Shown here piece after piece: positions 44,322 through 63,897 of a DNA stretch of 64,000 bases (its first letter is position 1; each line of letters opens with the position of its first letter). The stretch spans positions 1 through 64,000 of the forward strand of contig NZ_FOLC01000022.1 of the NCBI RefSeq assembly GCF_900112135.1. The letters run 5' to 3'. Position numbers and translations under genes: made by a program. The notes beneath the pieces were generated by a model. It did no database searches. It saw nothing but the letters and a program-made list of their open reading frames with translations, and was not told the origin of the DNA. This stretch comes from Collimonas sp. OK412 (GTDB taxonomy: Bacteria; Pseudomonadota; Gammaproteobacteria; Burkholderiales; Burkholderiaceae_D).

Positions 44322-45128
44322 ATGAATACGCCCTTTTCCAGAGTCGTCTCACCGCTCCTCAATATCCCCGTGCTGAAGGCAAGTTGCGCGGGCTGCAGCC
44401 TGCACCAGCTATGCCTGCCGATGGGACTGGGCAACGCCGACATGGATCGCCTTGACCAGATCATCGGACGCGGACAGCGGATCCAGCGCGACCAGCATTT
44501 GTACCGGATGGGAGATCCGTTCAAAAACCTTTACGCCATCCGTTTCGGCCACTTCAAGACTTGCCATATAAGCAACAATGGCGAAGAACAGATTACCGGC
44601 TTCCAGATGGCCGGCGAATTGCTCGGCATGGATGCCATCAGCTCCGACCATCACCACTGCGACGCCATCGCGCTGGAAGACAGCGAGGTCTGCGAGATTC
44701 CATTTTCGCGGCTGGAAGAACTGTTCAGCCATATCCCGACCCTGCTGCATCATTTCCACCGCATCATGAGCCAGGAAATCACGCGTGACCAGAATGTCAT
44801 GCTCCTGCTCGGCAACATGCGCGCCGAACAGCGCTTTGCCGCTTTCCTGGTCAACCTGTCCTCGCGGTACCTGGCGCGCGGCTACTCCTCCACCGATTTC
44901 CAGTTCCGCATGTCGCGGGAAGACATCGGCAATTACCTGGGCCTGACGATCGAAAGCATCAGCCGGCTCCTTTCCAGTTTCAGGGTTAAAGGCTGGATCG
45001 CCGTCGACAAACGGGAAATCCAGATCCTGGACCTCTCGAAATTAAAAGAGATCGCGCTTGGCGGCGAAGCGGCGCTGATGGCAAAAAAAACCGGCAAGCC
45101 GGCCGGCCCGGCGACCGCTAAAACCTGA
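44322..45128 (+). CDS. fnr: FNR/Anr-type oxygen-sensing transcription regulator
   Basis: 268 residues of the Crp/Fnr family. The N-terminus carries CX2CX5C (Cys22, Cys25, Cys31), with a fourth Cys at 113 (HHHCDAIALED), the set that holds the oxygen-labile [4Fe-4S] cluster in FNR. A cAMP-type beta-roll, dimer helix and C-terminal HTH follow (MSREDIGNYLGLTIESISRL); the E-x2-SR pattern is that which reads TTGAT half-sites. It is therefore the likely activator of the FNR boxes throughout the island. It is active as a dimer without oxygen. Convergent with the PatZ-like gene, 9 nt apart. Confidence 0.95.
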   Translation: MNTPFSRVVSPLLNIPVLKASCAGCSLHQLCLPMGLGNADMDRLDQIIGRGQRIQRDQHLYRMGDPFKNLYAIRFGHFKTCHISNNGEEQITGFQMAGELLGMDAISSDHHHCDAIALEDSEVCEIPFSRLEELFSHIPTLLHHFHRIMSQEITRDQNVMLLLGNMRAEQRFAAFLVNLSSRYLARGYSSTDFQFRMSREDIGNYLGLTIESISRLLSSFRVKGWIAVDKREIQILDLSKLKEIALGGEAALMAKKTGKPAGPATAKT

Positions 45129-52365: not shown

Positions 52366-52941
52366 TCAATCGTCCGCCGGTTTCATTGCAACCGGATCCA
52401 GGTCGACGCTAGCCTGTTGCGGCCAGGACCAGTTGGCATGCAAGCGCCAATCGCGATGCGCGTCTTCAATCAGGATCCGCCAGCGCGCCTTTTCCAGTTG
52501 CGGCAAACGCACCGAGAAATTGCCGTTGACATCCGGCCGCACAAACAGGGTGATATCTTTACCGGGCAAGGTCGAATGAATAAGGCGCAACTGCAAGCCA
52601 GGCATCGCTTCAGGCGCCATGTCCGAGGCTGCTGCCTGGCCGCCGGCATGGCGCAAGACCCCGCTCATTACACCGCTTTTCGCGTCATAGCGCAGGTTCC
52701 CGGCGATGCCGCGCCGTATTGCTTCCTCATCGCGCCGCAGATCCTGGTTGATCGCATTGCCCTCCTTGTAGTAGTCATCTTCCACCAGCGCATCTTGCCG
52801 GGAAAATGCCAGCCAGCCGGTATAACTGGCCGCCGCCACCACCACCAGCGGACCCAGCATCAGCAGCCACGGCCAGCGCTGGGCGTACCACGGTGCGGAG
52901 ACAGTAGATAGCCTGGTCATCAAATGTGCTTGGTTTTTCAT
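52366..52941 (-). CDS. ccoH: FixH/CcoH-like cbb3 assembly protein
   Basis: 191 residues: N-terminal membrane helix (WPWLLMLGPLVVVAAASYTGW) and a periplasmic FixH domain with the hallmark DALVEDDYYKEGNAINQDL. CcoH/FixH helps assemble and stabilise cytochrome cbb3 oxidase. The ATG at 52941 follows GGGA; the frame is open to 53019 but upstream starts overlap little sense. It lies 46 nt after ccoG and ends the ccoNOQPGH operon. Confidence 0.88.
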   Translation of the reverse strand: MKNQAHLMTRLSTVSAPWYAQRWPWLLMLGPLVVVAAASYTGWLAFSRQDALVEDDYYKEGNAINQDLRRDEEAIRRGIAGNLRYDAKSGVMSGVLRHAGGQAAASDMAPEAMPGLQLRLIHSTLPGKDITLFVRPDVNGNFSVRLPQLEKARWRILIEDAHRDWRLHANWSWPQQASVDLDPVAMKPADD

Positions 52942-52987
52942 CGTTATCCCGTTCGTCTTGTGTAATCCATGCGGGTTCCTGGCCGTT

Positions 52988-54388
52988 TCATCCAGGTATG
53001 TAAAACACGGCCTTTTCATTCACCTGCGACCTCGCGCCATCGAGCCCCTGCAGCCTGAAAGAAATACTGTTGGAGCCGGGCCTGCCTTGCCCGTGCGGCA
53101 CTCTTACCCGCACCGGAACCAGGCGCGTCTCGGTGGCGGCGAGCGTCACCTCGCTATCGCCGGAAAGCGCGATGCCATCGATGCCAGTCACGCTGATCTT
53201 GTAACGATGCGGCAATTCGTCGGTATTGATCGCCTGCAGCCGATAGACATTCTCAACCATGCCTTCTTCGACTTCCCGGCCCATGGAGCCACGGTCCCGA
53301 ATCACATCTATCTTGAGCGGAACCCTGAGTATCAGCGAGCCAAGGAAAATCGCCGCGATCACCAGCAGCGCCGAGCTGTAAATCAGCACGCGCGGGCGAA
53401 AAACCCGGCGCAGGATGGCAGCCGCCGGTAAATTCTCCGCCATCGCATGTTCCGTTGAATAACGGATCAATCCACGCTGCGCACCGATCCGGTCCATCAC
53501 CATATTGCAGGCATCGACACAGGCTGCGCAGCCGATGCACATGTATTGCAGGCCAGCCCGGATGTCGATCCCGGTCGGACAAACCTGCACGCACATGCTG
53601 CAATCGATGCAGGGCGAAGACGCCGGTTCCAGTGTTTTCCGGTAGCGGCTGGTGCGAGGCTCGCCGCGCGCCGCATCGTAGGTAACGATCAAGGAATCGC
53701 GATCGAACATGGCGCTCTGGAAGCGTGCATAAGGACACATGTATTTGCACACCTGCTCTCGCATCCAGCCCGCATTGCCATAGGTTGCGAAGCCATAGAA
53801 CATGACCCAGAACCATTCCCACGATCCCAGGCTGAGCACGCTTGCTTCACGCGCAAGATCGCGGACAGGCGTGAAATAGCCGGCGAATGTAAAGCCGGTC
53901 CACAACGCCACGGCGACCCAGGCCAGGTGCTTGCCGCTTTTGCGCAACAGCTTGTCGGGCGACCACCCCTGCCGGTCGAGCCGCATGCGCGCGCTGCGCG
54001 GCCCTTCTATCCGGCTTTCTATCCACAGGAATATCTTGGTGTATACCGTTTGCGGGCAAGCGTAGCCGCACCAGACGCGGCCGGCGATGGCTGTAAACAG
54101 GAACAGTGAGAACGCGCAGACAATCAGCAGCACCGCAAGATAGATAAAATCCTGCGGCCACAGCACAACGCCGAACAAATAGAATTTGCGCGCGGCCAGG
54201 TCGAACAGCACTGCCTGGCGGCCATTCCACCTTAGCCACGGCATGCCATAAAAAACCAGCTGCGTCAGCCATACGCATAACCAGCGCAGCGTGGCGTAAC
54301 GCCCGCCCACATCGCGCGGATATATCTGCTGCCGCGCCTGGTACATCCTGACAACGGCAGTCTTGGGAGAAGAATCACGCGTGCTCAT
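52988..54388 (-). CDS. ccoG: CcoG/FixG-type iron-sulfur oxidoreductase
   Basis: 466 residues: five or so membrane helices, NosR/NapH-like motif RVWCGYACPQTVYTKIF, a cytoplasmic pair of [4Fe-4S] motifs (CIDCSMCVQVCP and CIGCAACVDAC) and a C-terminal Ig-like periplasmic domain. CcoG reduces copper for delivery to the cbb3 oxidase. It lies 21 nt after ccoP in the same operon. Confidence 0.93.
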   Translation of the reverse strand: MSTRDSSPKTAVVRMYQARQQIYPRDVGGRYATLRWLCVWLTQLVFYGMPWLRWNGRQAVLFDLAARKFYLFGVVLWPQDFIYLAVLLIVCAFSLFLFTAIAGRVWCGYACPQTVYTKIFLWIESRIEGPRSARMRLDRQGWSPDKLLRKSGKHLAWVAVALWTGFTFAGYFTPVRDLAREASVLSLGSWEWFWVMFYGFATYGNAGWMREQVCKYMCPYARFQSAMFDRDSLIVTYDAARGEPRTSRYRKTLEPASSPCIDCSMCVQVCPTGIDIRAGLQYMCIGCAACVDACNMVMDRIGAQRGLIRYSTEHAMAENLPAAAILRRVFRPRVLIYSSALLVIAAIFLGSLILRVPLKIDVIRDRGSMGREVEEGMVENVYRLQAINTDELPHRYKISVTGIDGIALSGDSEVTLAATETRLVPVRVRVPHGQGRPGSNSISFRLQGLDGARSQVNEKAVFYIPG

Positions 54389-54409
54389 GGCTGGCTACCG
54401 GGTGTATGG

Positions 54410-55369
54410 TCATTGCGAGGCAGCAGCCGGGCGATCAAGTGCGGCTACGCTACCGGGATGGTTCGACAAGCTCCACACATAGGCGGCGAGTACATGCACC
54501 TTCGGTTCGCCGAGGAAGTCCTTGAACGACGGCATGGTGTTGTCGCGTCCCTTGCGGATGGTTTCCATGATGGTGTCGGCGCTGCCGCCGTACAGCCAGA
54601 TCTTGTCGCTCAGGTTAGGCGCGCCGATGGCCTGGTTGCCGATGCCGCCGGGTCCATGGCAGCCCATGCAGGCGGCAAACTTCGGCTTGCCGAAAATCGC
54701 CTTGATCGGATCGTGGGTCGAGCCGGACAGGCTCAGCACATAATGTGCGACGTTCTCGACATCTTTGTCGCCCCCCAATGCTTCGCCCATGGGCGGCATC
54801 ACGCCATGGCGCCCCTCCATGATGGTGGCCTTGATGGTTTCCGGCGCGCCGCCATGCAGCCAATCCTGGTCGGTCAGGTTGGGAAAGCCTTTATTGCCGC
54901 GTGCATCGGAGCCGTGGCATTGCGCACAGTAAGTCAGGAACAGGCGTTCACCGATCGCATGGGCCTGCGGATCGGCGGCGACGGTTTTCAAGTCCTGATG
55001 CAGGTATTTGCTGAACATGGGACCGTAGTCGGCATCGGCTTTCTTCAACTCGTCCTGATAGGCGCCGCTGGATTTCCAGCCAAGCTGGCCGGCGAAGCTG
55101 CCGAGGCCGGGATACAGCACCAGGTAAGCCAGGGAAAAGACGATGGTCACGTAGAACAGCCACATCCACCAGCGCGGCAAGGGATTGTTCAATTCCCCCA
55201 GGTCGCCGTCCCAGACATGGCCGGTGGTATTGTCGGCGGGATCCTGCCCCGCTTCAAGCGTGACCCTGCGGCTGCACTGCATCCACAGCAGCACGCCGCA
55301 GCCGAAGATGCTCAGTATCGTCAATATGGTGATATAGGGACTCCAGAATCCATCGGTAAAATCAGCCAT
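54410..55369 (-). CDS. ccoP: Cytochrome cbb3 oxidase diheme subunit CcoP
   Basis: 319 residues: two N-terminal membrane helices, the LPRWWMWLFYVTIVFSLAYL signature, and two c-type heme sites, CAQCHGS and CMGCHGP, each followed by a distal Met. It passes electrons from cytochrome c to CcoO/CcoN at the periplasmic face. ATG at 55369 with GGAG overlaps the ccoQ stop by 8 nt. Confidence 0.95.
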   Translation of the reverse strand: MADFTDGFWSPYITILTILSIFGCGVLLWMQCSRRVTLEAGQDPADNTTGHVWDGDLGELNNPLPRWWMWLFYVTIVFSLAYLVLYPGLGSFAGQLGWKSSGAYQDELKKADADYGPMFSKYLHQDLKTVAADPQAHAIGERLFLTYCAQCHGSDARGNKGFPNLTDQDWLHGGAPETIKATIMEGRHGVMPPMGEALGGDKDVENVAHYVLSLSGSTHDPIKAIFGKPKFAACMGCHGPGGIGNQAIGAPNLSDKIWLYGGSADTIMETIRKGRDNTMPSFKDFLGEPKVHVLAAYVWSLSNHPGSVAALDRPAAASQ

Positions 55370-55568
55370 GGCGACGCTCCCTGGCATCGAGTTCCGCCTT
55401 CACCTTGGCGAATTGCTCCTGGTCGTCGGCGAAAGGCAATAGCGCCGCCTCGTCGAAATCGTTGGGACGCCGCCGAACGTAGCTCCACCAGACAATGCCG
55501 ATGAACGTGACAAAGCTGATCACGGTAATGATGCTGTGCGCATCGATCAGTATTTTTTGGATGGCCAT
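55362..55568 (-). CDS. ccoQ: Cytochrome cbb3 oxidase small subunit CcoQ
   Basis: 68 residues: one membrane helix (IITVISFVTFIGIVWWSYV) and a polar C-terminal tail (RRRPNDFDEAALLPFADDQE), typical of CcoQ, which stabilises the complex. It starts 2 nt after ccoO and overlaps ccoP. Confidence 0.92.
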   Translation of the reverse strand: MAIQKILIDAHSIITVISFVTFIGIVWWSYVRRRPNDFDEAALLPFADDQEQFAKVKAELDARERRHG

Positions 55569-55570
55569 GG

Positions 55571-56185
55571 TTATCTCTCCGCCTTGATTTGTATGCCCAA
55601 TCCCTGCAGATAGGCAATCAGCGCATCTTGCTCGGTCTTGTCTTGCAACGCCGCGGGCGCGGCGGCGATCTCGGCATCGGTGTAAGGATCGCCCAGGCGC
55701 TGCAGCGCGCGCAGGTGCGGCACGATATTGTCAGGAACCAGGCGCGTCGATTCCAGCCATGGATAGCCCGGCATGTTCGACTCTGGCACCAGGTCGCGCG
55801 GATTGTGCAGGTGGGCGCGGTGCCATTCGTCGCTATAGCGGCCGCCGACGCGCGCCAGGTCCGGGCCGGTGCGCTTCGATCCCCATTGGAACGGCCGGTC
55901 GTAGACCGATTCGCCGGCCACCGAATAGTGGCCATAGCGTTCGGTTTCGGCCCGGAATGGCCGGATCATCTGGGAGTGGCAGTTGTAGCAGCCTTCACGT
56001 ATGTAAATGTCGCGCCCCGCCAGCCTCAACGGCGAATACGGCCGCAGGCCGGTAATCGGCTGGGTAGTCGACTTCTGGAAAAACAGAGGCACGATTTCTG
56101 CCAGGCCGCCGACGCTGACAACCAGGATCACCAGCCCGATCAGCAGCCAGTGATTTTTTTCTATCGATTCATGTGAAAATTTCAT
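55571..56185 (-). CDS. ccoO: Cytochrome cbb3 oxidase monoheme subunit CcoO
   Basis: 204 residues: N-terminal membrane helix ([20 protein letters not shown]) and one c-type heme motif in [14 protein letters not shown], a CcoO signature, with SNMPGYPWL supplying the distal Met. It carries electrons to the catalytic subunit. It lies 34 nt after ccoN. Confidence 0.96.
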
Positions 56186-56219
56186 GCCAGTGCCCCAGGT
56201 TCAGAATGGATCAGCCGTT

Positions 56220-57698
56220 TCATAGGACCTCCGCCGCCTCAGCCACCGCCGTGGCCGCAGGCGCCAGCGGCGCCACGGGATGAATGCGCGGCACGGCAAT
56301 GCGCGTATCCACCGGGAAGCTGTAGCGCATGGTCTTGAATACGTTGAAAGCCATCAGCAGCATGCCGCCCAGGTACAGCAGGCCGCCAAAGAAGCGAATC
56401 ACGTAATAGGGATAAGTAGCCTTGACCACTTCAACGAAGGCGTAAGTCAGCGTGCCATCGGGATTCACCGCGCGCCACATCAAACCCTGCATCACGCCGG
56501 CAATCCACATTGCAGCGATATACAGGACGATGCCGATGGTGGCCATCCAGAAATGCAGTTCGATCATTTTCACGCTCCACATCTGCTGCTTGCCTACCAG
56601 GCGCGGAATCAGGTAATACATCGAACCCATCGTGATGAAGCCGACCCAGCCCAGCGCGCCGGAATGGACATGGGCGATGCCCCAGTCGGTGTAGTGCGAC
56701 AAGGCATTGACGGTCTTGATCGCCATCATCGGCCCTTCAAAGGTCGCCATGCCGTAGAACGACAGCGACACCACCAGGAATTTCAAGATGGGATCGGTGC
56801 GCAGCTTGTGCCAGGCGCCCGACAAGGTCATCATGCCGTTGATCATGCCACCCCAGGACGGCGCCAGCAGGATCAGCGAAAACACCATGCCCAGCGACTG
56901 GGTCCAGTCCGGCAATGCGGTGTAATGGAGATGATGCGGGCCGGCCCACATGTAGGTGAAGATCAGCGCCCAGAAATGCACGATCGACAGCCGATAGGAA
57001 TACACCGGACGCTCGGCCTGCTTGGGGATGAAGTAATACATCATGCCGAGGAAACCCGCGGTCAGGAAAAATCCCACGGCATTGTGGCCGTACCACCACT
57101 GGATCATCGCATCCTGCACGCCGCTATAGGCAGAGTAGGACTTGGTCAAGGTAGCCGGCATCGCCATGCCGTTGACAATGTGCAAAAGCGCTACAGCGAT
57201 GATGAAAGCGCCGTAGAACCAGTTGGCCACATAGATATGCGCCACCTTGCGCTTGGCCAGCGTACCGAAAAACACCACGGCGTACGCCACCCAGACCACG
57301 GCCAGCAGGATAGCGATCGGCCATTCCAGTTCGGCATATTCCTTGCCGCGGGTGTAGCCCATCGGCAGGGTTATCGCCGCCAGCACGATCACCAGCTGCC
57401 AGCCCCAAAAGGAGAATGCGGCCAAGCCATCCGAGAACAGGCGCACCTGGCAAGTCCGTTGCACCACATAGTAGGAAGTTGCCATCAGCGCGCTGCCGCC
57501 GAACGCGAAGATCACCGCGTTGGTATGCAAGGGCCGCAGCCGGCCGAAGCTCAGCCAGGGAATATCGAAATTCATTGCAGGCCATGCCAGCTGTGCGGCG
57601 ATCAGCAGGCCGACCAGCATGCCGACCACTCCCCACACGATCGTTGCAATCGAAAACTGCTTGACGACCTTATAGTTGTAGCTAAGCGCTTTTTCCAC
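56220..57698 (-). CDS. ccoN: Cytochrome cbb3 oxidase catalytic subunit CcoN
   Basis: 492 residues with about twelve helices and the heme/CuB ligands in [48 protein letters not shown] and [19 protein letters not shown]. High-affinity oxygen reductase for microaerobic respiration, proton-pumping. The GTG at 57698 with GAGAGG 5-6 nt upstream is the likely start; the frame opens at another GTG (57722). The FNR box at 57763-57776 predicts a leader of about 30 nt. Confidence 0.96.
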
Positions 57699-57762
57699 GT
57701 TCCTCTCTCCCCAAAATACCACTGCAATGGAGCGAGGTTAAATGGCTGCAGGAAGTTGTTCT

Positions 57763-57776
57763 TTGATGTGAATCAA
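57763..57776 (-). promoter_or_regulatory. FNR/Anr box for ccoNOQPGH
   Basis: Perfect TTGAT-GTGA-ATCAA, the classic control site of cbb3 operons. The -10 on the minus strand at 31 bp spacing (TTAACC) is weak, consistent with a strongly activator-dependent promoter. Confidence 0.9.
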
Positions 57777-58008: not shown

Positions 58009-60540
58009 CTATATCTTGTTACGCAACCGCAACGCGTTGAGCACCACCAGGGCGGAACTGAACGACATGCCCGCCGCCGACAGCCAGGGATTGAGCAAGC
58101 CCAGCGCAGCCGCCGGGATAGCCAGCAGATTGTAGACTGACGCCCAGGCCAGGTTCTGCCGGATCACGTGCATGGTTCTCGCGCCGAGCCTGGCGGTATC
58201 TGCCAACGTCGATAATCGATCCGACAGCAGCACCGCATCGGCATGGACCTGGGCCAGCACGGCACCCGCCCCCATGGCAAAGGAAACGTCGGCGGCAGCC
58301 AGTACAGCGGCATCGTTCACGCCGTCGCCTATCATGGCGACGATCTCGCCGCGCCGCTGCAAGGCTTGCACGAATGCCAGCTTCTGCGCCGGCAAATGCG
58401 CGCCGTAAGTGTCATCGACATGCAATTCACGCGCTACATGCTGCGCCACATGGCCGTCGTCGCCGCTCAGCAATATCACCTTCTTGCCTTGGCGCTGGAA
58501 ATAGGCGATGGTCTGGCGGGCGTCTTCCCGTATCGCGTCGGCCAGGTCGAAACGCGCCAGCCATTCGCCATCCCGGCCAAGAAACACTGGCGTCACGGTC
58601 GCGTCCGCGGGGGGTGTGGCGGGCGTCGCGTTACCGGCCAGTCCTGCCACGAACGACGCTGAACCGAGTCGATACAGGACGCCGTCGAACTCCGCCTGCA
58701 CCCCCTCTCCCGCCACCTGGCTGACTGCCTCGACGCGCAATGCGGCCGCTTGCGGCGATATGCCGCGGCCGGCATCAACGATAGCCGCTCCCAGAGGATG
58801 GGCGCTGGACATTTCCATTGCGGCCGCTATCTGCAGGCATCGCTCGCTGGCGCTGCCGCCCAGTACTGCAATATTTTTCAGCACCGGCTTGCCCACGGTG
58901 AGCGTGCCGGTTTTATCGAAAATGATGCAGGTCGCCCTGTGCAGTGTTTCCAGCACATGCGGCTGCACGATCAATATGCCGCTGCGCAGCAGCCTGTCGG
59001 TGGCCGCCGCCAGCGCCGACGGCGTCGCCAGGGACAAGGCACAAGGACAGGACACCACCAGCACCGCGATTGCGATCGGCCAGGCACGCGCCGGGTCCAG
59101 CCATTGCCAGGCGCAAAACGCCAGCAATGCGCACAACAGCAGGGCCGCCACAAACCAGCCGGCGACCTGGTCGGCCCATTGCGCCATGCGCGGCTTGCAC
59201 TGGACCGCCCGCTCTGCCAGCTTGAGCAGCGCTGACAAGGTGCTTTCGCGCGCTACCCGGCTTATCCGCAGCACCATGGCTTGCCCGCAATTGACCGCGC
59301 CGCCGGGCAAGGCGTCGCCGGCAGCACAAGGCAAAGGCTTGCTCTCGCCACTCAGCAAGGAAACGTCAATCCTGCTGCTGCCGCTCAGCAAAACGCCATC
59401 GGCAGCGATCACTTCGCCCGGCTTGACCAGGATCAGGTCGCCTTTGGCCAATCTTGCGGCGGCAACCACTTCGCTGTCCATCGCGCGCGGATAGTCAAGC
59501 AGGCGGGTAGCGGAACCAGGCAATGCCTGCTGCAGGCGCTCCAGCGTCGAGGCCGCCTTGCGCCGCGCCGTCAGCTCCAGGTAACGGCTGCACAACAGGA
59601 GGAAAACGAACATGGTGACGGTGTCGAAATAGACTTCGCCGGAACCGCGCACGGTCGCCGCTGCGCTGCCGGCAAACGCTGCCGCCACGCCAATCGCTAC
59701 CGGCAGGTCCATGCCGAAATGGCGCGACTTGATGCCGATCCAGGCGCCATGCAGGAAAGGCAGCGCCGAGTAGCACAGCACCGGCAAGGTCAGCAGCAGG
59801 CTGGCCCAACGCATCAGCTGGAGCTGTGCGTGGTCGATGCTGCCTGCCGCGGCGAAATAGGCGGGAGCCGCGTACATCATGACTTGCATCATGCACAGTC
59901 CGGCGATGAACGTCTGGCGGAACAGGCGCTTGCCGGATTTGCGCAGCTGCTCTCCTTGCCTGGCCGCATCGAACGGGTAGGCGCTGTAGCCAATCTCGTG
60001 CAGCGCATGCAGGATATCGCTGGGCTTGCATTGCGTCTTGTCCCAGCGCACATGCAGGCGCTCGCCGGCCACATTCAGGCTGGCCAGCTGCAGCCCCGGC
60101 AAGCGCGCCAGCCGTTGCTCGATCAGCCAGACACAGGCCGCGCAACGAATCCCTTCCAGCGCCAGGGTCGCTTCCAGCAGACCGGCAGCCGGGCCGGCAG
60201 GATCCTCAAGCACGGTGGCGAATTGCGAATAACCGTCTTCGTCGTCATACAGCTGCAGTTCCGGCGGAACCAGCCCATCGCCGTCGATACGATTGGAAAA
60301 AGCCGTGCGAGTGACGTAATAATCGGAGTAGCCGCTATCGGCAACGGTTTGTGCGACCGCTGCGCAGCCCGGGCAGCACATCGCACGCGGCAGCTGTCCG
60401 ATCATGACGGACCAGTGCTGTCCTGCTGCAGATGGCGGCAGCGGCAGGCCGCAATGAAAGCAGTTGCCGGAGGCCGGCTCGGGAGCGGCGTCCGACGAGG
60501 GCACAGGGGGCAACGAAAGGCCGATCGAGGCGGCAGTCAA
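58009..60540 (-). CDS. ccoI: Copper P-type ATPase CcoI/FixI
   Basis: 843 residues: an N-terminal Cys-rich segment (CFHCGLPLPP, MCCPGCAAVA), a heavy-metal-binding domain (LEGIRCAACVWLIEQRL), eight membrane helices with the CPC motif (VVSCPCALSLATPSALA), phosphorylation site IIFDKTGTLTVGKP and the hinge MIGDGVNDAAVLAAADVS. It exports copper to the periplasm for cbb3 assembly rather than for resistance. Its ATG overlaps the TauE-like gene stop by 4 nt (ATGA). Confidence 0.94.
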   Translation of the reverse strand: MTAASIGLSLPPVPSSDAAPEPASGNCFHCGLPLPPSAAGQHWSVMIGQLPRAMCCPGCAAVAQTVADSGYSDYYVTRTAFSNRIDGDGLVPPELQLYDDEDGYSQFATVLEDPAGPAAGLLEATLALEGIRCAACVWLIEQRLARLPGLQLASLNVAGERLHVRWDKTQCKPSDILHALHEIGYSAYPFDAARQGEQLRKSGKRLFRQTFIAGLCMMQVMMYAAPAYFAAAGSIDHAQLQLMRWASLLLTLPVLCYSALPFLHGAWIGIKSRHFGMDLPVAIGVAAAFAGSAAATVRGSGEVYFDTVTMFVFLLLCSRYLELTARRKAASTLERLQQALPGSATRLLDYPRAMDSEVVAAARLAKGDLILVKPGEVIAADGVLLSGSSRIDVSLLSGESKPLPCAAGDALPGGAVNCGQAMVLRISRVARESTLSALLKLAERAVQCKPRMAQWADQVAGWFVAALLLCALLAFCAWQWLDPARAWPIAIAVLVVSCPCALSLATPSALAAATDRLLRSGILIVQPHVLETLHRATCIIFDKTGTLTVGKPVLKNIAVLGGSASERCLQIAAAMEMSSAHPLGAAIVDAGRGISPQAAALRVEAVSQVAGEGVQAEFDGVLYRLGSASFVAGLAGNATPATPPADATVTPVFLGRDGEWLARFDLADAIREDARQTIAYFQRQGKKVILLSGDDGHVAQHVARELHVDDTYGAHLPAQKLAFVQALQRRGEIVAMIGDGVNDAAVLAAADVSFAMGAGAVLAQVHADAVLLSDRLSTLADTARLGARTMHVIRQNLAWASVYNLLAIPAAALGLLNPWLSAAGMSFSSALVVLNALRLRNKI

Positions 60541-61316
60541 TGCCCTGCTCCCGCCGCGCCGATACAGATCGCATCAAGCCAGCCCAGGGACAATCCGTTA
60601 GCCAGCCGGAAAATGCCCGCCAATCCGAACAGCAGCACAATAAAGCCGCCGGCGATACGGACCCGCGGATCGAGCAGCCGGCTTTTCAGGCGCATTCCCA
60701 TCACGCCGAGCATCAATAGCATAGGCAAGGTTCCCAATCCGAACGCCAGCATCACCGTCGCACCGGATAGGGCATCGCCGCTCAGCATTGCGGTCAGCAG
60801 TACGCTGTAGACCATGCCGCATGGCAGCCAGCCCCACAAAGCGCCCAGCATCAACGCCTTGGCCGGACTGTCCATCGGCAGCAACAACCTGATGGCCGGC
60901 TGCAAACGCCGCCAGGCAACCTGCCCGAGCGCTTCCAGCCAGCTCAAGCCACGCCAGGCCCCCATCAGGTGCAGGCCCAGCGCTATCAATATCAGGTTGG
61001 CCAGCCAATAGGCGCCTATCTGCAGCGACGACAGCGACGCCATGACACGCACGCTTTGGGCCATGCCGCCGGCCATGGCTCCTGCAATCGCGTAGCTGAA
61101 CAGCCTGCCGCTGTTGTAGGCGAGCACGCGCGGCAGCTGCATGAGATAGGTTTGCCTTGAGGATTCCTGAACAATGCCGCCAGTCGCCAGCCGCAACCGG
61201 ATTACACGCGCCGGTGGCTTCGCGGCCACCGACAAGGCGCTGACGATGCCGCCGCACATGCCAATGCAATGGACGCTCCCTAGCAGCCCTATCAGGAAAA
61301 TCGGCAGGAGGTTCAT
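60537..61316 (-). CDS. TauE/SafE-type membrane protein of the cbb3 assembly cluster
   Basis: 259 residues with about six helices: IFLIGLLGSVHCIGMCGGIV (Cys in helix 1, the SafE/DsbD-like signature) and LGALWGWLPCGMVYSVLLTA (paired Cys). In cbb3 clusters this gene between ccoS/ccoI and other genes is often called ccoH-like or 'sulfite exporter TauE/SafE'; the paired Cys in membrane helices suggests copper or thiol transfer rather than sulfite export. Start at 61316 chosen because the 52-codon ORF upstream ends there (ATGA); a start at 61361 is possible. Confidence 0.82.
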   Translation of the reverse strand: MNLLPIFLIGLLGSVHCIGMCGGIVSALSVAAKPPARVIRLRLATGGIVQESSRQTYLMQLPRVLAYNSGRLFSYAIAGAMAGGMAQSVRVMASLSSLQIGAYWLANLILIALGLHLMGAWRGLSWLEALGQVAWRRLQPAIRLLLPMDSPAKALMLGALWGWLPCGMVYSVLLTAMLSGDALSGATVMLAFGLGTLPMLLMLGVMGMRLKSRLLDPRVRIAGGFIVLLFGLAGIFRLANGLSLGWLDAICIGAAGAGH

Positions 61317-61471
61317 GCCCGCCCCATGCTCCGGGCGGTACGCGTTTGCCAATGACAGCATGCCTTTTGGCTAGGCTTATAGCCTGCCCCCTCCTCATTC
61401 GGCCCCGTAAGCAACGCAGCATCATGATTTTCCGCATCACATGTGGGAGACGTTTTTCTTGAAGTTGACAT
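61313..61471 (-). CDS. Candidate 52-residue Cys/His-containing small protein
   Basis: A minus-strand ORF starting MSTSRKTSPTCDAENHDAAL and ending QTRTARSMGRA, with a GGAG site 7 nt before its ATG and its stop overlapping the TauE-like ATG (ATGA). It lies at the right distance (about 53 nt leader) from the FNR promoter at 61559-61572, which otherwise would leave a 200-nt leader for the TauE-like gene. Three Cys and three His residues (including KACCHW) could bind a metal such as copper. I know no family for it; it may be a real small protein or a fortuitous frame. Confidence 0.45.
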   Translation of the reverse strand: MSTSRKTSPTCDAENHDAALLTGPNEEGAGYKPSQKACCHWQTRTARSMGRA

Positions 61472-61558: not shown

Positions 61559-61572
61559 TTGATATAGATCAA
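61559..61572 (-). promoter_or_regulatory. FNR/Anr box for the ccoI/ccoS assembly operon
   Basis: Perfect TTGAT-ATAG-ATCAA. On the minus strand TATATT (61531-61536) lies about 32 bp from the centre, a near-consensus -10. Predicted start at about 61524. Confidence 0.87.
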
Positions 61573-61691: not shown

Positions 61692-62402
61692 TTATTGCGC
61701 GGCTGGCATTGCCTCCAGATAGACAGCGACATTCTTCATGTTTTCCGGCGTAAGTTCGTGCGCAATGCTTTTCATCATGGCGCCCTCGGGCCGTTCGTCT
61801 GTCCTTTGAAAAACCATCAGTTGTTTAATGATGTAATCGGCATGTTGGCCTGCAAGCCGCGGGAATTGCTGAATGCCTTCGCCATGCGCACCATGACAGC
61901 CGGAGCAGGCAGGTGTTTTGCTTGCAGCAATGCCGTCTTCAAAGATTTTCTGGCCATCCTTGAACAATGCCGGGTTTCCGGGCCTTCCTGGAGGGGGAGC
62001 CTGCGAAGAGAAATAGGCAGCCAGTCCATTGATCTGCTCGTCGGATAAGCGAGCGCTGATGCCCCACATATACTCGAAGCCGGCGGGATCCGAACGGCCA
62101 TGGCTTTTAAAAGATTTCAGTTGTTCCACCAGATAGGATTCCGATTGCGCCGCCAGATTCGGAAAATTGGGCGAGGTCGAAACTCCCTGAACGCCATGGC
62201 AATTGGAACAAACCTGCAACGCGAGCGTTTTGGCCGCCACCGTTGGATCTCCCAGCGAGCGAGAGCGTTCGGGCAAATTGCAAGCCACCACCCCTGCGAC
62301 GAGAATCAAGCTCAGGGAAAGATGAATCCCCCTCTGCTTCAAGTCCTTGAATTTCGCATCTGCAGTTCCGAGACGCGCAGGCTGGTCGTCATGGCTTCTC
62401 AT
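61692..62402 (-). CDS. Diheme c-type cytochrome (c4-like), probable lipoprotein
   Basis: 236 residues: N-terminal membrane/signal segment ending VAGVVAC (possible lipobox), then two similar cytochrome c domains with CSNCHGVQG and CSGCHGAHGEG and distal Met residues (EYMWGI, GAMMKSIA). The tandem class I arrangement resembles cytochrome c4, an electron carrier to cbb3-type oxidases. Its ATG follows the porin-cytochrome stop with no gap (TAAATG), so it is co-expressed and may carry electrons between the outer-membrane protein and the oxidase. Confidence 0.88.
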   Translation of the reverse strand: MRSHDDQPARLGTADAKFKDLKQRGIHLSLSLILVAGVVACNLPERSRSLGDPTVAAKTLALQVCSNCHGVQGVSTSPNFPNLAAQSESYLVEQLKSFKSHGRSDPAGFEYMWGISARLSDEQINGLAAYFSSQAPPPGRPGNPALFKDGQKIFEDGIAASKTPACSGCHGAHGEGIQQFPRLAGQHADYIIKQLMVFQRTDERPEGAMMKSIAHELTPENMKNVAVYLEAMPAAQ

Positions 62403-63737
62403 TTAGTACGCTCCCCACACATAGAGAAACAACGTGTTGTTGTCTTTGGCATTGCGCCCGGAACCGTCGTAGTTGCTGGAGGCGCCATGGAACTGGGTGT
62501 AGGCATAGTATTGGACGCCAATGCGAACGTATTGCACCGGCATCCAGAATATTTCGGGAACCCAGCCGCGTGTACCTGGATTGGCTGCGACATCCGGATA
62601 CAAGGTCGGATCCGAGCTTCCCGTGGTGCTGAAATAGCTCAGGCTTGTACCGTATTTTGCCCGATAGACGTAGCTCGCTTTCAGCCGCAGCTGATTAAGC
62701 GTATTGGAGGCATTGCTGGCAACGCCTGTCACGTCGCCGTTGGTGATGGTTTCCCTGATATAGCTGAACTGCGCCGTGACGGTATGCGGATCCAGCAAAT
62801 ATTGATATTGCGCGTCCACCCCGCGGTCGCGATAGCGTGTGGTCGGCCCCACCGGATTCGTGTTGTCGGGATAAAGTTGGGCATTCATGGCAAGTATCCC
62901 GATCATTGCGCTATGCGGGCCCCAGTCATGGCTGAGCGCAAGCCGTATGTAGGGATTGCTGCCCTTCAGGTTCGTTTGGTCCTGCGCTTTCGTGCCTTGG
63001 CTCAAGAATGACCATACGCCGTTGCTGGTCTGGTATGCAGCCAATTCGGCGTACAGCGTCTTGTTCCAGAAAGCATAGGCTGTCAGCCCGGCAACCTGGG
63101 TACCCAGTTGGCTAATGATGGGGCTGGCGTCGGGCGCGGTGACTCCGAATTGGGTGGGGACATACTGGATCCACGCAGGAGCAGTGTTCCAAGGATCGGT
63201 GAGGGAAGGATTGTTGTTGAGGCTGACGCCGAAAATAAAGTCTTGGGTCGGGCTAATAAATCGATCGGCATAGCGCAAGTCGAAATTATCGGAGGCCCAT
63301 TTCCCTTGCCATTTGCCGGTGTCCTGATTTTGGCTGTCGTAGTTATTGTAGGTCCATTGCGCAAACGCGCCGACATTGTCAGTGACTTTTCCTGCCAGGA
63401 AGACGCTGCCGGTTTGAAACAAGGCGACCGCGTCCTTGGCGAACGCCACATCGGCATCCGGCTTCGAACTCTTGGTGAAACTGGCGACCGCCATCGCAGA
63501 TAGCGGAATGGTCCGCGTACCGATCGTATAACCGGTGAGCTTGAATAATCTCCCGTAAGCAGTCAGCTCGGGAAACTGGCCGCCAGCATGGCAAGCCACG
63601 CAATTCTGTCCTGTTTGCCTTGCGAAAGCGGGAAGTGCGTAGCCTGCGATTGGGGCGAAAAAGCCTGCAAAGAAAAGAATAACGGCGATCAGGCCAACAT
63701 ATCTGATTCTTCGATCTCGAGAAATGAACACATTCAT
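62403..63737 (-). CDS. Cyc2-like fused monoheme cytochrome-porin (outer membrane)
   Basis: 444 residues: a signal peptide (LIAVILFFAGFFAPIAGYAL), then immediately PAFARQTGQNCVACHAGGQF with one CXXCH heme site (Cys46, Cys49, His50), then LTAYGRLFKLTGYT and about 370 residues with alternating polar/aromatic strands ending in an aromatic residue (LFLYVWGAY), as in a 16-strand beta-barrel. The order signal peptide - FARQTG - CXXCH - FGRxFKxxGYT - barrel is that of Cyc2, the fused outer-membrane cytochrome used for extracellular electron uptake in iron oxidisers. In heterotrophs the role is unknown. FNR box upstream. Confidence 0.82.
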   Translation of the reverse strand: MNVFISRDRRIRYVGLIAVILFFAGFFAPIAGYALPAFARQTGQNCVACHAGGQFPELTAYGRLFKLTGYTIGTRTIPLSAMAVASFTKSSKPDADVAFAKDAVALFQTGSVFLAGKVTDNVGAFAQWTYNNYDSQNQDTGKWQGKWASDNFDLRYADRFISPTQDFIFGVSLNNNPSLTDPWNTAPAWIQYVPTQFGVTAPDASPIISQLGTQVAGLTAYAFWNKTLYAELAAYQTSNGVWSFLSQGTKAQDQTNLKGSNPYIRLALSHDWGPHSAMIGILAMNAQLYPDNTNPVGPTTRYRDRGVDAQYQYLLDPHTVTAQFSYIRETITNGDVTGVASNASNTLNQLRLKASYVYRAKYGTSLSYFSTTGSSDPTLYPDVAANPGTRGWVPEIFWMPVQYVRIGVQYYAYTQFHGASSNYDGSGRNAKDNNTLFLYVWGAY

Positions 63738-63883
63738 TTACCACCCCTCCCCTTCAGTCTGTTTTGAAATTATTCTTGAAAGGTTTCGAGTAGGACAGAG
63801 AGAAAGTCAACGTACGCAAACTCGAAGCGCCCCATTTCCATGACTGTGCGGACATACATATATCAGCAAAATAACCACTGGAT

Positions 63884-63897
63884 TTGACGTATATCAA
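63884..63897 (-). promoter_or_regulatory. FNR/Anr box for the porin-cytochrome operon
   Basis: TTGAC-GTAT-ATCAA, one mismatch. TATATG (63857-63862) lies exactly 31 bp from the centre on the minus strand. Leader of about 110 nt. The remaining bases to 64000 contain no recognisable gene. Confidence 0.78.

Follow-up and report, generated by a model that had tools for sequence, protein, structure and literature searches.

Cyc2 is a fused cytochrome-porin with which iron-oxidising bacteria take up electrons from dissolved iron at their surface. It is used as a marker for iron oxidation; its function in organisms not known to oxidise iron is an open question (Keffer et al., PMC8406198). The definition given there comprises AXPXFAR[Q/K][T/Y] before a CXXCH heme site, a motif described as unique to Cyc2, PXL after the heme site, a length of at least 365 amino acids (aa) and a porin. 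In Acidithiobacillus ferrooxidans the gene belongs to the rus operon, cyc2-cyc1-cup/hyp-coxBACD-rus, according to the available passages of PMC10654088 and PMC2621215. For Mariprofundus and the Gallionellaceae (Cluster 1) a chain from Cyc2 via Cyc1, a cytochrome c4, to a cbb3 oxidase was proposed (passages of PMC5371394 and PMC8406198), and for M. ferrooxydans, Cyc1 is assumed to be the carrier that delivers electrons to cbb3 (passages of PMC5371394). Homologues of Cyc2 and Cyc1 in Burkholderiales are already in print. From the sequence set of the published Cyc2 tree, several Burkholderia and Ralstonia entries had been taken out because of over-sampling (PMC8406198, in part), and published networks link Burkholderiales to both AfCyc2 and AfCyc1. 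Here, we describe a cyc2 gene of the soil bacterium Collimonas sp. OK412, which is followed directly by a gene for a diheme cytochrome c4 and lies close to a cbb3 oxidase gene cluster. The analysed window comprises 64,000 bp (bases 1-64000 of the 79,632-bp contig NZ_FOLC01000022.1). An earlier note on this DNA had proposed a Cyc2-like porin-cytochrome under an FNR box.

The cyc2 open reading frame (ORF) lies on the minus strand, starts with ATG at 63737 and contains no internal stop codons up to the stop ending at 62403. The earlier note had extended the gene to 63897 and named no strand; the gene is real, but 63897 is the outer edge of an FNR-like box in front of it. Judged by eye, approximately residues 1-34 form a plausible signal peptide, which is followed by ALPAFARQTGQNCVACHAGGQFPELTAYGRLFKLTGYT. 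The published signature is present as ALPAFARQT, followed by GQN and CVACH. The heme site C46-C49-H50 is the only CXXCH of the protein, and its 444 aa compare with a minimum of 365. Past the heme site, two glycines (residues 52-53) are inserted, in the following called the GG insertion. PEL is found five residues past CXXCH, compared to four for PXL in the published consensus. Among 149 of the loci L031 to L203, with repeats of one contig counted, this spacing amounts to five residues in 108, three in 30 and four in 11. A genome search revealed a single match in the genome of the strain itself.

To describe conservation, 70 of 80 loci were aligned with the window protein (alignment A2), after exclusion of 10 near-duplicate, broken, short or differently aligned rows. 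All 71 sequences agree in A34, P36, R40-Q41-T42 and the heme residues, and 60 of them contain the full FARQT. No Pfam family was found over its cut-off and no NCBIfam or PHROGs family at E values up to 1. A PDB search with the single sequence returned one chance-level match (E 1.7), and a search with the profile returned none. In profile-profile comparisons, however, the window set matched a wider gammaproteobacterial Cyc2 set with E 1.5e-111 over 422 columns and the Cyc2 set of family f207 with E 6.8e-16 over 268 columns. Judging from its gene content, f207 appears to be Zetaproteobacteria-like. Of the 89 genomes with matches in a sample of 398 from the phylum, 65 belong to f207, whose share in the sample is not given. 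The spacing of four residues, i.e., the published value, is that of f207. The placement in an unrelated cytochrome family, named in the earlier note as a refutation, was not observed.

The predicted fold agrees with this assignment. An AlphaFold2 model built with 17 sequences contains 16 strands, with a predicted local distance difference test score (pLDDT) of 69.0 and a predicted template modelling score (pTM) of 0.72. With 71 sequences, 16 strands were predicted over residues 79-442 (pLDDT 79.0, pTM 0.80), so that the 16-strand porin barrel suggested for the protein appears in both models. Foldseek searches against the PDB gave OmpF/OmpC-type porins as the best matches (E from 1.6e-7), with modest TMq values of 0.36-0.47. 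Among the 50 matches listed per search, 45 carry the name of an outer-membrane porin or channel, alone or together with another protein, and most of these are of the OmpF/OmpC type; the others are 4 artificial zinc proteins of similar length and 1 entry whose title names no protein. By signature, profile and predicted fold, the window protein is a member of the Cyc2 family of porin-cytochromes. Met82 is invariant in all 71 sequences of A2 and in all 17 of alignment A1, which makes it a candidate for the sixth heme ligand. Met278 is likewise invariant in A2 and is found in 82% of A1. In the f207 set, a Met of comparable conservation is absent after the heme.

Sequences with CHAGG[Q/H] form a single clade of 26 rows with support of 100/100 in a tree of 67 rows. 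In an earlier tree of 88 of 162 loci, from which 22 rows were dropped and one added for the later one, the clade comprised 32 rows with a Shimodaira-Hasegawa-like approximate likelihood ratio test (SH-aLRT) value of 100. It is a well supported and mainly betaproteobacterial clade with rows from Oxalobacteraceae, Burkholderia, Paraburkholderia, Pandoraea, Trinickia, Thiobacillus, Sulfuricella, Rhodocyclaceae, Comamonadaceae and a few others. The closest rows outside the clade have a spacing of three, and the window Cyc2 is placed away from the f207 set. The wider group in the tree includes a Cyc2 located about 7 kb from a rusticyanin-like gene on the same strand (E 1.0e-39, under the curated family cut-off), with intervening genes that look like COX subunits by eye; the genome concerned could be assigned from its gene content only tentatively. 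At E up to 0.001, 39 of the 294 genomes searched within the family contain relatives, other Cyc2 types included; at the level of the class the figure is 63 of 369, and at that of the phylum 89 of 398. The contig scan retained the closest 80 of 565 confirmed loci, so that counts on named loci describe close relatives.

The earlier note placed cyc2 in an operon with a diheme c4-like cytochrome, and indeed the c4 gene begins 0 bp past the cyc2 stop codon. Its product has two c4-type heme domains, with 1h1o, 1etp, 6q2u and 8uf3 as the best PDB matches; the last three are named cytochrome c4. The top match among the 11 listed is 1h1o, a cytochrome c-552 which we take to be Cyc1 of A. ferrooxidans (E 4.1e-36), followed by 1etp (E 3.3e-32) and 6q2u (E 7.3e-31). 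The identity to 1h1o is 42% over 169 residues (129 bits), compared to 36% and 121 bits for the other c4 of the same genome, which is a small margin. In the reverse comparison, the scores of 1h1o are 129 bits for the window c4 and 101 bits for the other one. The pairing is frequent among close relatives. A diheme gene follows cyc2 in 66 of the 74 named relatives with enough sequence (a single heme motif in 2, none in 6), in 16 of 32 loci of the mixed set L031-L066 and in 6 of 36 loci of the class and phylum samples, which mostly represent other Cyc2 types. Counted once per contig, there are 84 GG-type loci, 72 of which have a diheme frame downstream.

The c4 partners of the GG type share a further property. 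Under a loose rule, a lipobox-like Cys past a hydrophobic stretch was found in 72 of 72, and a stricter pattern, which we assume to describe lipoproteins, matches 66 of 72. The c4 partner is therefore probably a lipid-anchored lipoprotein. In 64 of the 66 pattern-matching sequences, the distance between this Cys and heme 1 is exactly 23 residues, as it is in the window c4. Counted differently, a lipobox is present in 64 of 71 pairs and a strict box in 20 of 71. The residue following the Cys is S (21), H (18), A (13), Q (6), N (4), T (4), V (4) or G (2) and never Asp. If lipoproteins are sorted by this residue, as we presume, anchoring in the outer membrane is more likely. An RSR-like motif follows the Cys in 68 of the 72. 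The lipoprotein pattern was found in only 1 of 9 pairs not labelled as GG, and this one (L133) is itself a GG sequence (CHAGGL). In three further frames of the genome with at least two heme motifs, at other c4-like places, the lipobox-like Cys is absent; a fourth such place (L218) yielded no frame. Since GG insertion and lipoprotein c4 coincide in the tree, a single event may underlie their association.

Upstream of cyc2, an FNR-type box with one mismatch to TTGATNNNNATCAA, which we take to be the FNR consensus, was found where the earlier note had placed it. In total, the window contains 14 sites with at most one mismatch (1.60 expected) and 9 perfect sites (0.05 expected). In 80 non-identical upstream regions of 450 bp from related loci, a box with at most one mismatch occurs in 28, 15 of them with a perfect one, compared to 1.31 expected from resampled sequence. 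Sorted by hand, 16 of the 28 box-bearing regions belong to Oxalobacteraceae. Three other Collimonas loci (L032, L033 and L034) carry perfect boxes 269-270 bp from the heme-motif codon, compared to 259 bp in the window, and the middle bases of the box differ among them. Owing to the enrichment in the window and the conservation in related promoters, the box upstream of cyc2 exceeds chance and is a real, conserved promoter site. Boxes are dense between 26941 and 63897; together with the fnr gene and the cbb3 genes, this run of about 37 kb forms an oxygen-response region. In place of the cbb3 genes, the fnr gene is found about 7 kb from the pair in three other Collimonas. In Herbaspirillum, a member of the same family, fixNOP is located near fnr1 and is among the most induced genes at low aeration (PMC5934665, available part). 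A cytochrome b561 gene lies divergently upstream of cyc2 (4210-4764 of L031, contig 64209-64763, beyond the window); the FNR-type box between the two genes could serve both.

The cbb3 oxidase said to be encoded just downstream is confirmed by ccoN, ccoO, ccoP and ccoG, all on the strand of the pair and over their NCBIfam cut-offs. The idea of a complete path from the outer membrane to the oxidase holds in part: all components are present, but the cbb3 cluster has perfect FNR boxes of its own and its adjacency is rarely conserved. Owing to these boxes, co-transcription with the cyc2-c4 pair is not needed. We dropped adjacency to cbb3 as a conserved feature. A heterotrophic host, as presumed before, agrees with the absence of any RuBisCO match in the genome. 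Any use of Fe(II) would thus be mixotrophic and not based on Calvin-cycle autotrophy.

Compared to A. ferrooxidans, the order is the same, a porin-cytochrome directly followed by a diheme c4 with the identity to 1h1o given above. In contrast, the window Cyc2 has the GG insertion past the heme, which presumably sets it apart from the chromosomal A. ferrooxidans Cyc2. Further differences are the lipobox-like Cys of c4, the FNR boxes, a nearby cbb3 instead of an aa3 oxidase and a presumed heterotroph as host. No rusticyanin or cup gene was noticed among the ORFs around the pair, where no family search was aimed at them. With Cyc2 of Mariprofundus and Gallionellaceae, the window protein shares the signature and the proposed chain to cbb3, whereas its sequence is distant, if the match to f207 is taken as the measure and f207 indeed represents Zetaproteobacteria. 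The CXXCH-PXL spacing is four residues in Cluster 1 and five in the window. The Cluster 1 iron oxidisers are autotrophs, and 5 of the 6 f207 genomes tested carry RuBisCO, in contrast to the genome analysed here. We found no published description of the GG clade, of a lipoprotein c4 or of FNR control of cyc2 in the accessible passages of the literature, which mostly does not cover subscription journals. Likewise, no literature was found that links Collimonas with Cyc2 or cites the motif letters.

Taken together, we propose that the pair serves low-oxygen electron uptake, probably from Fe(II), via Cyc2 and the tethered c4 to cbb3, with a probability of roughly 0.58. At low oxygen, the pair would be induced by FNR. 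Fe(II) is the most likely donor; this or another soluble one-electron donor would enter the pore of the barrel from outside and reduce the single c-type heme on the mature N-terminus, which is thought to plug the periplasmic mouth. The electron would then pass to c4, which may be held near the plug because it is probably lipid-anchored, more likely in the outer membrane. From there it might be handed to the cbb3 oxidase encoded nearby. Oxidation of Fe(II) could supplement organic growth or dispose of Fe(II). Some phylotypes of Undibacterium grew on Fe(II) as the sole energy source in enrichments (PMC6287000, available part). Undibacterium griseum and U. jejuense carry the cyc2-c4 pair, and U. 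oligocarboniphilum has a broken cyc2 frame beside c4. This support is circumstantial, since the pair is known from named species of the genus and growth on Fe(II) from the phylotypes.

Several observations weigh against this proposal. The PXL of the window Cyc2 is one residue off the published consensus. The heme segment is the weakest part of the models, with pLDDT below 50 for residues 41-45 and 50-55. In 12 of the 84 GG-type loci a diheme frame is missing downstream, partly because too little sequence is available. Of the 80 upstream regions, 52 lack an FNR box when one mismatch is allowed. These include 13 regions of the window's own family, the Oxalobacteraceae, and the box is absent from all 24 regions of Burkholderia, Paraburkholderia, Caballeronia, Trinickia and Pandoraea. 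Among 35 other loci, most of them scanned with about 10 kb on each side, the full cco cluster adjoins the pair only in L060. This locus is from the same genus and its cyc2 frame is broken. In L061, an intact pair is adjoined by ccoG, ccoH and the terminal part of ccoP, and L047 and L051 show weak matches to CcoI-like ATPases only. Moreover, cbb3 need not be the acceptor, since four heme-copper oxidase catalytic subunits were found over cut-off in the genome. The gene is accessory: among 15 sampled Collimonas genomes, including the one studied here, 9 have any match and 5 the GG type, of which one copy is broken. To our knowledge, no member of the GG clade has an experimentally established function. 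According to Keffer et al. (PMC8406198), large parts of Clusters 2 and 3 lie far from the tested proteins and require verification. The available text of a multi-omics study of Collimonas pratensis on biotite does not contain the string 'iron oxid', and the cyc2 status of that strain is unchecked (PMC12542777).

Among the alternatives, the oxidation of Fe(II) outside the cell for protection, iron acquisition or mineral weathering, with little energy gain, holds up best. Fe(II) would then be kept out of the periplasm at oxic-anoxic boundaries. An accessory and sometimes broken cyc2 in a heterotroph without detected RuBisCO would fit, and Collimonas is a mineral-weathering genus (PMC12542777, available part). 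However, the paired c4 and the nearby oxidase suggest respiration, and we consider this explanation unlikely.

An outward flow at low oxygen, in which c4 reduces Cyc2 and the electrons reach extracellular Fe(III) chelates, humics or quinones, seems rather improbable. Regulation by FNR would make sense if electrons have to be disposed of, a lipid-anchored c4 could work in either direction, and bidirectional operation may be possible for Mto/Mtr-type porin-cytochromes (PMC10734462, available part). A lone heme in a pore, however, suits a small dissolved donor. The measured potentials of Cyc2 are high, with 208 mV in M. ferrooxydans and 560 mV in A. ferrooxidans (PMC8406198, in part), which is poor for ferric oxide reduction. 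In addition, Cyc1-type c4 serves uptake in the published cases consulted, and genes for a high-affinity oxidase, likewise under FNR boxes, are part of the window.

Slightly less probable still is a substrate other than iron, where the Cyc2-like fold would oxidise another small donor, e.g., Mn(II), Cu(I), thiols or phenolics. The GG clade is distinct and the loop beside its heme is changed, and a very large gene of unknown role precedes the pair in 12 Burkholderia/Paraburkholderia loci. On the other hand, the literature consulted mentions no other substrate of Cyc2, and we regard this explanation as quite improbable. Finally, an unrelated porin with a chance CXXCH would agree with the empty searches of Pfam, NCBIfam and PHROGs, but can be dismissed given the signature residues invariant in 71 of 71 sequences, FARQT in 60 of them and the matches to both other Cyc2-type profile sets.

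Beyond electron uptake in this strain, a broader idea may tentatively be put forward, which we judge more likely to fail than to hold. The GG-marked Cyc2 type and the short-tethered lipoprotein c4 might form a two-gene plug-and-relay uptake unit, which co-evolved, spread among heterotrophic Burkholderiales and came under FNR control in Oxalobacteraceae. Ordinary heterotrophs of soil and freshwater would then use Fe(II) as a supplementary fuel, oxidising it under oxygen scarcity. The locus offers a compact case in a cultivable genus: the two genes, the predicted oxygen switch and the relay with its predicted membrane tether can be removed one at a time. If iron is oxidised, iron oxidation by microaerobic mixotrophs may have been greatly undercounted, and Collimonas would have a possible redox arm for mineral weathering. 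If it is not, genome-based Cyc2 calls need to be narrowed.

Table 1. Features of the cyc2-c4 locus and its surroundings in the window
Feature	Position	Strand	Remarks
Cyc2-family fused monoheme cytochrome-porin	62403..63737	minus	444 aa; by sequence, profiles and predicted fold
Diheme cytochrome c4 (Cyc1-like)	61692..62402	minus	236 aa; begins 0 bp past Cyc2 stop
FNR-type box	63884..63897		TTGACGTATATCAA on plus strand; one mismatch to TTGATNNNNATCAA; about 146 bp before Cyc2 start codon
FNR-type box, perfect	61559..61572		between c4 gene and DsbD_2/ccoI cluster
FNR-type box, perfect	57763..57776		upstream of ccoN
DsbD_2-domain membrane protein	60537..61361	minus	first gene of oxidase cluster
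Heavy-metal P-type ATPase, CcoI/FixI-like	58009..60540	minus	CcoI/FixI by position
cbb3 oxidase genes, candidate terminal acceptor	52366..57722	minus	ccoN, ccoO, ccoQ-like, ccoP, ccoG, ccoH-like
ccoN	56220-57722	minus	over NCBIfam cut-off
ccoO	55571-56185	minus	over NCBIfam cut-off
ccoQ-like	55362-55568	minus	position only
ccoP	54410-55387	minus	over NCBIfam cut-off
ccoG	52988-54388	minus	over NCBIfam cut-off
ccoH-like	52366-53019	minus	position only
Fnr regulator gene	44322..45128	plus	NF008365 over cut-off; candidate regulator

Apart from c4, the search for other widely conserved neighbours was given up, as most large clusters looked like shadow ORFs by eye; an upstream gene set recurs only in the Burkholderia group. 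The 12 Burkholderia/Paraburkholderia loci in which the pair follows a very large protein are L094, L097, L099, L102, L109, L110, L115, L116, L118, L125, L129 and L131. Their large frames code for 1163-1290 aa, and no Pfam family was found over cut-off in the one tested. In L125, a 564-aa protein containing a cytochrome c domain and two proteins with weak similarity to LolA are encoded as well. This arrangement is possibly a larger electron-transfer cluster.

Broken cyc2 homologues were observed in L060 (Collimonas genome G197), where the adjacent c4 gene is recognisable, and in L046 (Undibacterium oligocarboniphilum, same contig as L090), again with a recognisable c4 neighbour. Because of these frames, cyc2 seems to be dispensable in some lineages. 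Other Collimonas carry a different Cyc2-like protein with about 38-41% identity (L055, L056, L057, L058 and L059), which has a spacing of three where it could be read and lacks a diheme neighbour. Both types occur together in one Collimonas genome (G164). A further relative with FAAQTG in place of FARQTG is located on the A. ferrooxidans plasmid CP084173 (L204, 8890-10257). It adjoins a transposase gene and is followed by a c-type cytochrome. A match with the same score was found on a plasmid of Acidiphilium cryptum.

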